Assembly (NCBI RefSeq): GCF_000170915.1
Contig: NZ_ABCT01000013.1
Span: 1-64,000, forward strand
Direction: 5' to 3'
From: Limnobacter sp. MED105
GTDB lineage: Bacteria > Pseudomonadota > Gammaproteobacteria > Burkholderiales > Burkholderiaceae_B
Length of the DNA: 64,000 nt
This document shows positions 54,674 through 64,000 of this stretch, piece by piece. The position numbers and the translations under genes were made by a program. Below the pieces are notes generated by a model. That model saw only the letters and a program-made list of their open reading frames with translations, did not search any database and was not told the DNA's origin. The stretch's first letter is position 1; each line of letters begins with the position of its first letter.

Positions 54674-54750
54674 GGCGAATTAGCTCAGCCGGTTAGAGCG
54701 ACGGAATCATAATCCGCAGGTCCGGGGTTCGAATCCCTGATTCGCCACCA
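54674..54750 (+). tRNA. tRNA with CAT anticodon (probably elongator tRNA-Met)
   Basis: The 77 bases fold into a standard cloverleaf. The acceptor stem is GGCGAAT/ATTCGCC, the D-arm GCTC...GAGC, the anticodon loop ATCATAA with CAT at 54708-54710, the T-arm CAGGG-type stem with TTCGAAT loop, and an encoded CCA end. The anticodon stem has an A-C mismatch at its top pair. CAT anticodons serve initiator Met, elongator Met or lysidine-modified Ile2. The A-T first-pair context excludes the initiator, and similarity of the anticodon arm to betaproteobacterial tRNA-Met favours elongator Met. It is the probable integration site of the element to its right. Confidence 0.93.
54711..54750 (+). other. Candidate attachment site (attL) in the tRNA 3' half
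   Basis: A tyrosine-integrase gene starts about 80 bases past the tRNA, in the same direction, and everything to its right is plasmid-like. Such integrases usually recombine within the 3' half of a tRNA gene and rebuild it. A second copy of these bases is expected at the element's other end, outside the window. The exact core cannot be fixed from one end. Confidence 0.4.
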
Positions 54751-54757
54751 CGAATTA

Positions 54758-54793
54758 AAAAGTCTAAGTCTCACAAGGACTTAGGCTTTTTTT
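54758..54793 (+). terminator. Rho-independent terminator after the tRNA
   Basis: AAGTCTAAGTC pairs with GACTTAGGCTT across a seven-base loop (one mismatch) and runs into T residues. It ends tRNA transcription and shields the integrase gene. Confidence 0.8.
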
Positions 54794-54828
54794 CATTTCA
54801 AGCCATGTATCCGGTTAGGGATACGATC

Positions 54829-61124: not shown

Positions 61125-61224
61125 CTTTGTTGATCAGCTTGCTAAATTAAAAGTAGGATTCTCAATCTTCATCTCGTTGAGCTCCTTTTAAGATTAAAGA
61201 CCAAATAGGATTTAATCGGAAGCA

Positions 61225-61253
61225 AAATTGGCACCTCTTTGGGGTGCCAATTT
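61225..61253. terminator. Bidirectional terminator between the relaxase-like gene and hsdR
   Basis: AAATTGGCACC and GGTGCCAATTT make an 11-bp perfect stem with a seven-base loop, AT-rich at its base on both sides. It lies between two convergent genes and can serve both. Confidence 0.75.
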
Positions 61254-61261
61254 CATTTGAA

Positions 61262-64000
61262 TCATTGATCTTTAAGTTCAGACCGCAATCGAAGGTGCAG
61301 TTCTTCTGCCAGAATTCGAGCCATACGATCAAAGACTTTTTGATCCTGCAGAACCTGATCGGCCATGACGTTGTGGCTCTGTAATGCGGCGACCACGGCT
61401 CGATTGAATTTCTCGATGTAGGCACCACTTAGAAACGCATCCACATCATCATTGGCCTTGGCTTGCTCAATCAATAACGGATCATCAAGCAGCTTTGCCA
61501 ACAAGGTGTCCAGATAGCCACGATAATCCGTTTCATCCAAATTGCCTGCGAAGACCTCATTCATCTTTTTGATCACTGCCGACAATCTTTCTTCGGGATC
61601 ATCCCACACGGCACCGCCTCCGGGCTTCATTGGGTTCATGGGTTTGGCGGTTCCCTCTTCCAATTTCAGTGTGTGGCCTTTTTCGTTCAAGAGCTTATAG
61701 GCCGTGAGCTGAATGGATTTTTCAACAGGTTCATCAATCCCGGTTTGCCCCGTCAATCTTGGCAACAAGCGGCTGTAAAACGCATGACGCTTTTCCAAAT
61801 CAATGTCATCGTAGGAAACCAATTGCGTCAGAAAATCATAGGCGGTCACGAATGAAGACATGTCCGCACGGAACAAATCTTGTTGCTCTTTGGTGGCCTT
61901 CTTGAACCGTTCAAATGCTGTTTTGAGAAGCACCTGAATGTCTTTCTGCTGACCATTAGGACGGAAATAAGCTTTTGAAAATGCTTCAATTTCCGAATCC
62001 AGATAGTATCCAGCCTCATCCAGTTTGGCACTCAATGTATGAACCAAATTCCGATCCGTCACATCGCTAAGAGTGGCAGTTCGGTAAAAGGGTTGGAACG
62101 ACTTCAGAATATCTTCGGGCTTGTTTCGGAAATCAATCACGACGGTGGTTCGCTTTCCTGGGAAGGTCCGATTCAATCGGGAAAGCGTTTGCACCGCCAA
62201 GACGTTATCAAGCCGTTTGTCCACATACATTGCACACAACTTGGGTTGATCAAATCCCGTTTGGAATTTACTGGCCACGATCAATAATTGGTAAGCATTC
62301 GTCTTGAAGGCTTCTTTGATCTCGTCGTCGCACTCCCCTTTATCGTTGAGATCGCCCTCGGTAGCCTTTACCACATCGGATTCTGGATCCGTCACATCAC
62401 CAGAGAACGCCACCAACGCTTTGCAATCGGTATATCCCATCTTTTTGATGTATTCGTCCAAGGCCTTTTTGTATCGAACCGCGGCAATCCGCCCATCCGC
62501 CACCACCATGGCTTTAGCTTGATTGTCGAGCAAGTGCATCACATGTTCGCGGAAATGCTCCACGATCACGGCCACCTTTTGAGCAATGCTGGTGGGATGG
62601 ATTTGGGCAAACCGGAATAACTTCTTTTTGGCCTTGCCCGATTTAACGTCGCGATCCTCTTTTTCTTTGCTCTCGAGTTTGAAGGCGAATTCGTAGGTGG
62701 TGTAACCCTTCAACACGTCCAAGATAAATTCTTCTTCAATGGCCTGACGCATCGAGTAAACGTGGAACGGCTTCGGAATGCCATCGGCTCCCTCGGTTCC
62801 AAACAGCTCCAATGTCTTGGGCTTAGGTGTCGCGGTAAAAGCGTAGTAGGACACATTGGGAGGACGCTTGCGAGCCTCAATCAATTTGTTGATCAAGTCT
62901 TCTTCGGTCACTTCTTCATCTGGGTTTTCATCGGAAATGATCGCCTCACCGCCGGTGGTCTTATCTCCTTTGGATAGAACCTCCCGCAACTTGATCGCCC
63001 CCTTACCTGCCTGACTCGAATGGGCTTCATCCAGAATCAATGCAAACCGCTTGTCCTTCAATCCCTCGACCTTGTTCAGAATCCATGGGAATTTCTGCAA
63101 AGTGGTGATGATGATGAGCTTTTGATTGTTCAGTGCGTCCGCAAGCTGCTGGCTGTTCTCATCAATTTTTTCGACCACGCCTTGTTGGTGATCAAACTGG
63201 TAGATGGTGTCCTGCAGTTGGGTATCCAATACCCTGCGATCCGTGATCACAATCACACTGCTAAACACTTTTTCGTCTTGGGCATCATGAAGGGAGGCCA
63301 AGCGATGGGCCAACCACGCGATGGTGTTGGACTTGCCTGATCCAGCGGAATGTTGAATCAAATAGGATTCGCCCACCGTATCTTCTAACGTGGCATTGAC
63401 CAACGCCCCAACGGCTGACCACTGGTGGTATCGCGGAAACAGGATGTTGGGAAAGAATTCGGTTCGCCCCTTGGCGTCTTTCTTTTCTGACACATCGACC
63501 GCGAGAAATTTCCCAATGATGTTCAAGAAATTGTCGGGTTGAAAAACCTGGTGCCAGAGATAGCCAGTGGAATAACCCAATTCAGGATCCGGCGGATTGC
63601 CTGCACCTGCCCCACCAAACTCATCGGGAATGCCGCGATTAAAGGGCAGAAACCGTGTAGCACTGCCCGCCAACTTGGTGGTCATGTGGACTTCATCCGT
63701 GCTCACCGCGAAATGGACCAAAGCACGTTTACCAAACTGCAATAGAGGCTCTGGCATTTTGCTTGGGCCATCGATGGGTTGGCGGTCAGTCTTGTATTGA
63801 GAAATCGCATCATGAATGTTTTGGGTGGTGTCGGTCTTCAATTCAATGGTGGCAAGCGGAATACCATTGAGAAACAGCACAAGGTCAATGCACTTTCGGT
63901 TGTGGATGGAGTAATGCACCTGACGAACTAAGCGAAGGCGATTCTTTGTGTAGTGTTCCAGCGTGGTCGAGTTCTGTTTATTGCTCGGGGCGAATTGTGC
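61262..64000 (-). CDS. hsdR: Type I restriction enzyme R subunit (N-terminus beyond window)
   Basis: HsdR is the DNA translocase-nuclease of a type I restriction system. The visible 912 residues continue to the right edge without a start; a GTG at 63919 is internal, because upstream codons read NRLRLVRQVHY, a typical HsdR N-terminal segment. IDLVLFLNGIPLATIELKTD holds the D...ExK nuclease site. SAGSGKSNT is Walker A, LILDEAHSSQ is the DEAH box and AFTATPK is motif III. VASKFQTGFDQP and QTLSRLNR are later helicase motifs. Only about 100 residues should be missing. hsdM and hsdS are expected to the right. It faces the relaxase-like gene. Confidence 0.95.
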   Translation of the reverse strand, partial: AQFAPSNKQNSTTLEHYTKNRLRLVRQVHYSIHNRKCIDLVLFLNGIPLATIELKTDTTQNIHDAISQYKTDRQPIDGPSKMPEPLLQFGKRALVHFAVSTDEVHMTTKLAGSATRFLPFNRGIPDEFGGAGAGNPPDPELGYSTGYLWHQVFQPDNFLNIIGKFLAVDVSEKKDAKGRTEFFPNILFPRYHQWSAVGALVNATLEDTVGESYLIQHSAGSGKSNTIAWLAHRLASLHDAQDEKVFSSVIVITDRRVLDTQLQDTIYQFDHQQGVVEKIDENSQQLADALNNQKLIIITTLQKFPWILNKVEGLKDKRFALILDEAHSSQAGKGAIKLREVLSKGDKTTGGEAIISDENPDEEVTEEDLINKLIEARKRPPNVSYYAFTATPKPKTLELFGTEGADGIPKPFHVYSMRQAIEEEFILDVLKGYTTYEFAFKLESKEKEDRDVKSGKAKKKLFRFAQIHPTSIAQKVAVIVEHFREHVMHLLDNQAKAMVVADGRIAAVRYKKALDEYIKKMGYTDCKALVAFSGDVTDPESDVVKATEGDLNDKGECDDEIKEAFKTNAYQLLIVASKFQTGFDQPKLCAMYVDKRLDNVLAVQTLSRLNRTFPGKRTTVVIDFRNKPEDILKSFQPFYRTATLSDVTDRNLVHTLSAKLDEAGYYLDSEIEAFSKAYFRPNGQQKDIQVLLKTAFERFKKATKEQQDLFRADMSSFVTAYDFLTQLVSYDDIDLEKRHAFYSRLLPRLTGQTGIDEPVEKSIQLTAYKLLNEKGHTLKLEEGTAKPMNPMKPGGGAVWDDPEERLSAVIKKMNEVFAGNLDETDYRGYLDTLLAKLLDDPLLIEQAKANDDVDAFLSGAYIEKFNRAVVAALQSHNVMADQVLQDQKVFDRMARILAEELHLRLRSELKDQ

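Follow-up and report, generated by a model that had tools for sequence, protein, structure and literature searches.

A 14,878-bp element at the 3' end of a CAT-anticodon tRNA gene in Limnobacter sp. MED105: a probable integrative and mobilizable element on a RepL/pHW126-type plasmid backbone

The window analyzed here is a stretch of 64,000 nucleotides from Limnobacter sp. MED105, namely positions 1-64000 of a 114,579-bp contig (C34, NZ_ABCT01000013.1) in a genome of 3.39 Mb and 46 contigs. Toward its right end lies a mobile element of 14,878 bp that is inserted at the 3' end of a tRNA gene with a CAT anticodon. The left 9.3 kb of the element fall inside the window, and coordinates beyond 64000 refer to the contig. 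The target gene (54674-54750, plus strand) is the sole tRNA found by ARAGORN and decodes as Met or Ile2. A repeat search showed that its last 17 bp, TCCCTGATTCGCCACCA, which make up the attL core (54734-54750, plus strand), are repeated exactly at 69612-69628, 14,878 bp from the first copy and to the right of the window (attR). With up to two mismatches allowed, this 17-mer has two matches in 20 kb, compared to 0.01 expected. Core genes resume past attR, the first of them starting at 69937, 308 nt beyond the repeat. GC content averages 45.4% over the whole element; the 54.7 kb on its left have 53.2% and the 4.4 kb on its right 50.3%.

A preliminary description of the window had listed a CAT tRNA followed by a tyrosine integrase, repeats, a possible initiator, a relaxase-like gene and hsdR, all at a lower GC than the core genes to the left, and had read them as the left end of an integrative element. 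Each of these features is present in that layout, and the drop in GC is real. The repeat of the tRNA 3' end that it expected to the right exists, with core genes after it, and its suggested comparison with related genomes gave the empty and occupied sites described below.

The two ends of the element carry further features. Directly behind the tRNA, a terminator-like hairpin borne by the element (54751-54800, plus strand) is more stable than shuffled sequence (z -6.1, 0 of 200 shuffles as stable). A second terminator-like hairpin is found beyond attR; it lies within the portion that a query joining the two flanks matches in five relatives and is taken as the original terminator of the tRNA, now displaced. 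The motif TGTATCCGGT, chosen after looking, occurs near the left end (54806-54815, plus strand) and again near the right end at 69514-69523 and, with one mismatch, at 69491-69500; at one mismatch there are four matches against 0.64 expected, and 2 of 200 shuffles reach as many. ATCCGGT, counted on either strand, is found four times in the element, three of them within 150 nt of its ends (binomial 3e-5), and six times in a different element of a congener (G011), four of them terminal (binomial 1e-6), both values being qualified by the post hoc choice of the motif. The terminal copies of ATCCGGT and TGTATCCGGT are proposed to be integrase arm sites.

Occupancy of the site was surveyed in 16 genomes of the genus, that of MED105 (G000) included. 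The site is empty in 11 of the 16 (G001-G006, G009, G010, G012, G014, and G015), where the tRNA and the right-hand core gene are separated by 211-307 nt without any match to the integrase of the element. The joined-flank query (292 nt), searched against the same 16 genomes, matched over its full length in four of them and over 285 nt in a fifth, so that 5 of the 11 empty sites are seen with this query too. The site is occupied in MED105 and in G011. A remnant stands at the tRNA in G007, consisting of a hairpin, ATCCGG sites and 24 residues that match integrase residues 4-27, followed by another open reading frame (ORF). In G008 and G013, other genes lie to the right of the tRNA within 1.5 kb, and these genomes were counted as neither empty nor occupied. 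In G007 this region is at about 457-1500 of locus L021, and the ORF that follows the remnant encodes 219 aa and presumably resembles DUF3800.

The tyrosine integrase of the element (54805-56361, plus strand) is 518 aa long and matches PF00589 at 2.8e-15. An alignment of four sequences, the window protein included, shows R321, H420, R423, H446, and Y464 to be invariant, and we take them to be the catalytic residues. Relatives at 1e-40 are found in 4 of 268 genomes of the family, one of them MED105 itself, and none is found at 1e-20 in the plasmid collection.

Behind the integrase gene are four pairs of 22-23-bp units. These comprise an upstream set of two pairs of 22-bp repeats, partly degenerate (56680-56794, plus strand), and four 22-bp direct repeats (56948-57035, plus strand; period 22 and 4.0 copies in Tandem Repeats Finder, TRF), which are the proposed origin iterons. 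A degenerate 19-bp pattern has six exact copies, all in 56683-57033; at up to three mismatches it gives nine matches in the window against 1.25 expected, three of which fall elsewhere. The gene that follows (57153-57614, plus strand) encodes a RepL-type protein of 153 aa, the proposed replication initiator (PF05732 at 8e-8, 32.4 bits with a cut-off of 20.3). When the protein was searched with tblastn against 72,556 plasmids, 43 records were matched at 1e-2, all below 60% identity. The first-listed match is NZ_CP138725.1, a 2,497-bp Klebsiella plasmid (Col(IMGS31), MOBV), with 83% of the query covered at 31.8% identity (8e-9). TRF also reports direct repeats, with a period of 22-24, upstream of rep in this plasmid and in NZ_CP056197.1 (2,426 bp). 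RepL relatives are rare: among 399 genomes of the order there are 2 with a match, and among 268 of the family there is 1, MED105 included in both counts. The plasmid collection contains no free plasmid close to 56362-61130 at the DNA level, and a search of viral contigs with the Rep alignment gave no relatives.

This arrangement has precedents among small plasmids. In pIGRK, a member of the pHW126 family, four 20-bp repeats with 2-bp spacers are described upstream of rep (PMC6854812). Rolling-circle replication of pHW126 has been argued from two-origin evidence (PMC2831885), and RepR is described as being without HUH-initiator motifs, its replication mode needing more study (PMC6854812). The element had been credited in the preliminary description with its own iteron replicon. 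The repeats and the initiator are indeed present, but their layout supports the RepL/pHW126 type, believed to be rolling-circle, rather than a classical theta iteron replicon, and it is by this analogy that a replication origin is proposed in the element. A theta replicon of the Rep_3 type was rejected, as the protein matches RepL and Rep_3 is not among its 22 listed Pfam families. Between rep and mob, an ORF of up to 176 aa (57683-58213, plus strand) is unmatched in Pfam, NCBIfam and PADLOC, its best PHROGs match reaching only E 0.14.

The next gene (58938-61124, plus strand) encodes a relaxase-like mobilization protein (Mob) of 728 aa. A tblastn search of the plasmids at 1e-3 matched 11 records, in each case with less than 60% identity and less than 80% of the query covered; the best match (E 1e-7) is on NZ_CP056197.1, the plasmid that also encodes a Rep relative. 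Encoded on small plasmids, these distantly similar relatives are "plasmid recombination" proteins. Among seven aligned Mobs, of which four match PF01076 and four match PF03432, H269, E273, H287, and H289 are invariant, and these His/Glu and His-x-His residues presumably form a metal site. A profile of the four plasmid Mobs matches MobM (4lvi) at 1e-4, a profile of all seven does so at 2.6e-4, and an hhalign comparison with the typical Mob of NZ_CP138725.1 reaches a probability of 89 (E 2.3e-6). The His/Glu...His-x-His region of the Mob aligns with that of the MOBV relaxases (MobM 4lvi, Mob_Pre), from which the window protein differs by large insertions, by the lack of the N-terminal motif seen in its aligned relatives and by the lack of a direct Pfam match. 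Judged from these comparisons, the protein is probably MOBV-like and a putative relaxase, very divergent and not called a member of MOBV, and it is the weakest part of the interpretation given below. Mobilization functions, which the preliminary description had thought probable, are to this extent retained by distant similarity. Mob matches occur in 9 of 399 genomes of the order and 3 of 268 of the family, MED105 included. The window Mob has no relatives in viral contigs, the four plasmid Mobs have one 37-residue match there that was not used, and no relatives were confirmed in the genome-contig collection. In G069, which belongs to another genus, a weak Mob match adjoins genes that by eye resemble type I restriction.

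Upstream of mob, an imperfect inverted repeat (58668-58718, plus strand) is a weak candidate for an origin of transfer (oriT; z -3.8, 1 of 200 shuffles as stable). The GC-rich stretch 58540-58680 folds no better than shuffles (z -0.5). Among 16 loci compared, none matched the 724-bp region before mob, and the only match to the region before rep was weak and AT-rich. A TTTTAGGATTW repeat before mob, with five matches in the window against 1.57 expected and 3 of 100 shuffles showing as many, was not used.

The right part of the element is occupied by a restriction system and regulators. The type I restriction subunit gene hsdR (61262-64378, minus strand; 1038 aa; HSDR_N 4.5e-18) crosses the window edge at 64000, and the window-cut protein falls below the cut-off of the NCBIfam hsdR model. 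It is accompanied by hsdS (64393-65679, minus strand; Methylase_S PF01420 5.4e-27) and hsdM (65663-67813, minus strand; N6_Mtase PF02384 2.1e-52, HsdM_N PF12161 3.1e-22). All three are in open frames with their domains and PADLOC agrees, which indicates a complete type I system. A KfrA-like gene (67773-68594, minus strand; PF11740 3e-9; also PADLOC JetC at 6e-5) comes next. Upstream of its start is an array of 5.6 copies of a 15-bp AT-rich unit (68674-68757, TRF), which may be its operator, and this is followed by an H-NS-like gene (68832-69152, plus strand) with a weak, below-cut-off match to PF00816 (1e-3) and by a 98-aa ORF without matches (69190-69486, plus strand). No conjugation-pore genes were recognized in the element, either in the ORF lists or in Pfam scans of the main ORFs, and it has no VirB4 match.

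Taken together, these observations make it quite likely that the element is an integrative and mobilizable element (IME) with the backbone of a RepL/pHW126-type plasmid. In favour of this reading are the 17-bp repeats, the empty sites, the sister element in G011 and the remnant in G007, the lower GC, the RepL match, the 22-bp repeats before rep in a layout shared with two Klebsiella plasmids and pIGRK, the Mob relative encoded on one of these Klebsiella plasmids, the match of the Mob-family profile to MobM, and the lack of a VirB4 match in the element. Of the attributes by which an IME is recognized, the element has its own integrase, direct-repeat ends at a specific site that is empty in relatives, and no complete conjugation machinery in the ORF lists and scans; the distantly MOBV-like protein is its putative relaxase.

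Its boundaries, the empty site, its gene content, the repeat layout and the recurrence of related elements can be read from the sequence itself, and from there we infer how excision, replication, nicking and transfer might proceed and what the cargo and regulators may do. The integrase would recombine the 17-bp copies of the tRNA end, freeing a circle that could then be reinserted into the tRNA gene; such an insertion would keep the tRNA whole and equip it with an element-borne terminator. Once the element is circular, RepL would bind the 22-bp repeats, allowing it to go on replicating. The MOBV-like protein would nick an oriT upstream of its own gene, and one strand would leave through the conjugation machinery of another element. 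The type I restriction genes may serve in defence and retention, and the KfrA-like and H-NS-like proteins in regulation or stabilization.

IMEs with replication genes have been documented, SGI1 and BcenGI2 being examples (PMC5704250). The element resembles these in its tyrosine integrase, its site at a tRNA 3' end (BcenGI2), its own mobilization gene, the lack of pore genes, a plasmid-type replication initiator, and the presence of stability or restriction genes. It differs in the kinds of modules involved, as the initiators given in section 2.2 of that review are Rep_3, replisome organizer/DnaC, RepA/RepC, and Rep_Trans, with RepL not among them, and the restriction systems given there are type II, whereas that of the element is type I. 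With plasmids of the pHW126/pIGRK/pIGMS31 type it shares a RepL-type initiator directly behind repeats of about 22-bp period and beside a mob gene; however, those plasmids are free, about 2.3-2.5 kb in size and without integrase or restriction genes, and Rep identity is only about 30%. The relaxase of pIGRK is the tyrosine-recombinase-like MobK (PMC8152469), unlike the Mob of the element, and in one paper that mentions pHW126 the term "integrase" is applied to the resemblance of MobK to integrases. In the mostly open-access literature covered, no description was found of a RepL or pHW126-type replicon within a tRNA-integrated element. The combination, called uncommon in the preliminary description, is unusual in its parts but not in principle, because IMEs with other initiators and with type II restriction are known (PMC5704250). 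The element would add a RepL-type replicon to the IME replication modules of that section. It also offers a fully delimited case, with both att copies, empty sites and sister elements, in which the replication and mobilization genes of a small plasmid have merged with an integration module and restriction.

Several observations weigh against this interpretation. The FxHxxxY N-terminal motif found in six of the seven aligned Mobs is absent from the window protein, which also matches zero Pfam families, Mob_Pre (PF01076) included. Both structure models made in the analysis are poor (mean predicted local distance difference test scores of 50.1 and 48.9). Positions 58500-58740 are unmatched in the plasmid collection, and no oriT conserved with known plasmids is seen there. 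The Rep protein also passes the cut-off of the TrmB regulator family (6.3e-7) and matches other winged-helix regulator models. Lastly, the G011 element has neither a RepL match nor a tandem array of the window type, which means that a RepL replicon is not general among elements at this site.

Alternatively, an integrated plasmid may have turned into a resident genomic island, its integration being old or rare, its replication and mobilization genes being leftovers, and its present role being restriction. The divergence of Mob, without the N-terminal motif of its relatives, would fit such a history, as would the decayed relatives at the same tRNA, namely the G007 remnant and the broken integrase ORFs of locus L049. 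However, the integrase, Rep, Mob and hsd genes all have long, uninterrupted reading frames and both att copies are exact, and this account, although possible, is judged clearly the less likely one. It is more doubtful still that the RepL-like protein acts as a regulator with the repeats as its operators and that there is no replicon. Many repressors bind repeats upstream of their own gene, and the TrmB and winged-helix matches point in this direction, but the protein matches best to RepL and to the Rep of 2.4-2.5-kb plasmids whose sole replication candidate is this same layout, and eight 22-bp units exceed an ordinary operator. Although the integrase has matches among phage integrase families and Rep among O-like phage initiators (4.7e-8), an integrative and conjugative element (rejected, as no type IV secretion or pore genes were recognized and VirB4 is unmatched) or the left end of a prophage or phage satellite (rejected, as no structural genes, capsid or terminase included, were recognized among the ORFs read and proteins scanned, and no integrase relative was found at 1e-10 in 50,697 phage records) is very improbable, with Mob and KfrA also being of plasmid type.

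Relatives of the probable IME are found at CAT tRNAs in several genomes. The G011 element (JAJTEM010000012.1) resides at the same tRNA with an 18-bp att and shares with the window element an integrase that is 38% identical, a Mob of the same family (25% over 218 columns), and the presence of restriction genes. It differs in its length of 18,637 bp, in the missing RepL match, and in carrying Type ISP restriction (PF18135 1.7e-80) and GmrSD instead of type I, together with an MT-A70 methylase-like protein; these cargo genes lie at 2316-5444, 8472-10151, and 15302-16741 of locus L026. In Alcaligenaceae bacterium CGII-64 (G202, JACCER010000004.1), a CAT tRNA is followed by a ColE2-type Rep (PF03090 3.2e-33), a MobA/VirD2 relaxase (PF03432 1.5e-7) and H-NS, with a 20-bp att at 11,778 bp. 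Candidimonas humi (G125, NZ_JAHTBN010000018.1) resembles it by eye, its contig stopping short of the tRNA. At the CAT tRNA of Burkholderia sp. WAC0059 (L047) are an integrase of 30% identity, a relaxase (PF03432 2.4e-9), a NikA-like protein (2.7e-7) and DUF5906 (3.2e-18), with no second att copy in the stretch examined. By eye, the hairpin behind the tRNA differs in sequence in G011, G202 and WAC0059, and a similar one is present in G007. When 28 of the 36 loci with integrase matches were scanned for tRNAs, eight had a CAT tRNA upstream of the match, within about 1.2 kb, and the remaining loci had other tRNAs, tmRNA or none; L049 carries its broken integrase ORFs at the same kind of tRNA. Within these loci, close integrase relatives have the tRNA in common, their replicon, relaxase and cargo vary, and distant integrases use other sites.

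It is conceivable, as a tentative extension, that one tyrosine-integrase lineage at the CAT tRNA of several Burkholderiales genera serves as an exchangeable docking module for unrelated small-plasmid backbones, giving a family of integrating plasmids that alternate in a single chromosomal slot and of which two or more bring restriction systems, and that the Mob described here is a deep relaxase branch with a different N-terminal active site. The backbones in question are RepL with a MOBV-like Mob (here), ColE2-type Rep with MobA/VirD2 (Alcaligenaceae), and DUF5906 with MobA/VirD2 and a NikA-like protein (WAC0059). The integration module seems to have been exchanged among plasmid backbones, a view drawn from four types of element that does not yet amount to a phylogenetic finding. 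Several module combinations at one tRNA make it testable how mobilizable plasmids turn into genomic islands and whether an island, once excised, is maintained by a RepL replicon. In G202, an inner 17-bp copy of the tRNA end lies 8,727 bp from attL and the outer one 11,778 bp (L038 9430 and 12478), and these tandem copies look like the accretion of two elements at one tRNA.

Elements with MobV relaxases are reported to be mobilized by IncP plasmids (PMC5704250), and the same cell may contain a helper. The one VirB4-type match and the one MobA/VirD2 relaxase match of the MED105 genome, both above cut-off, are both on contig C19 (18,683 bp). By eye, ORFs at 5001-18683 of that contig resemble TrbB, TrbE, ParA, SSB, and a replication protein.

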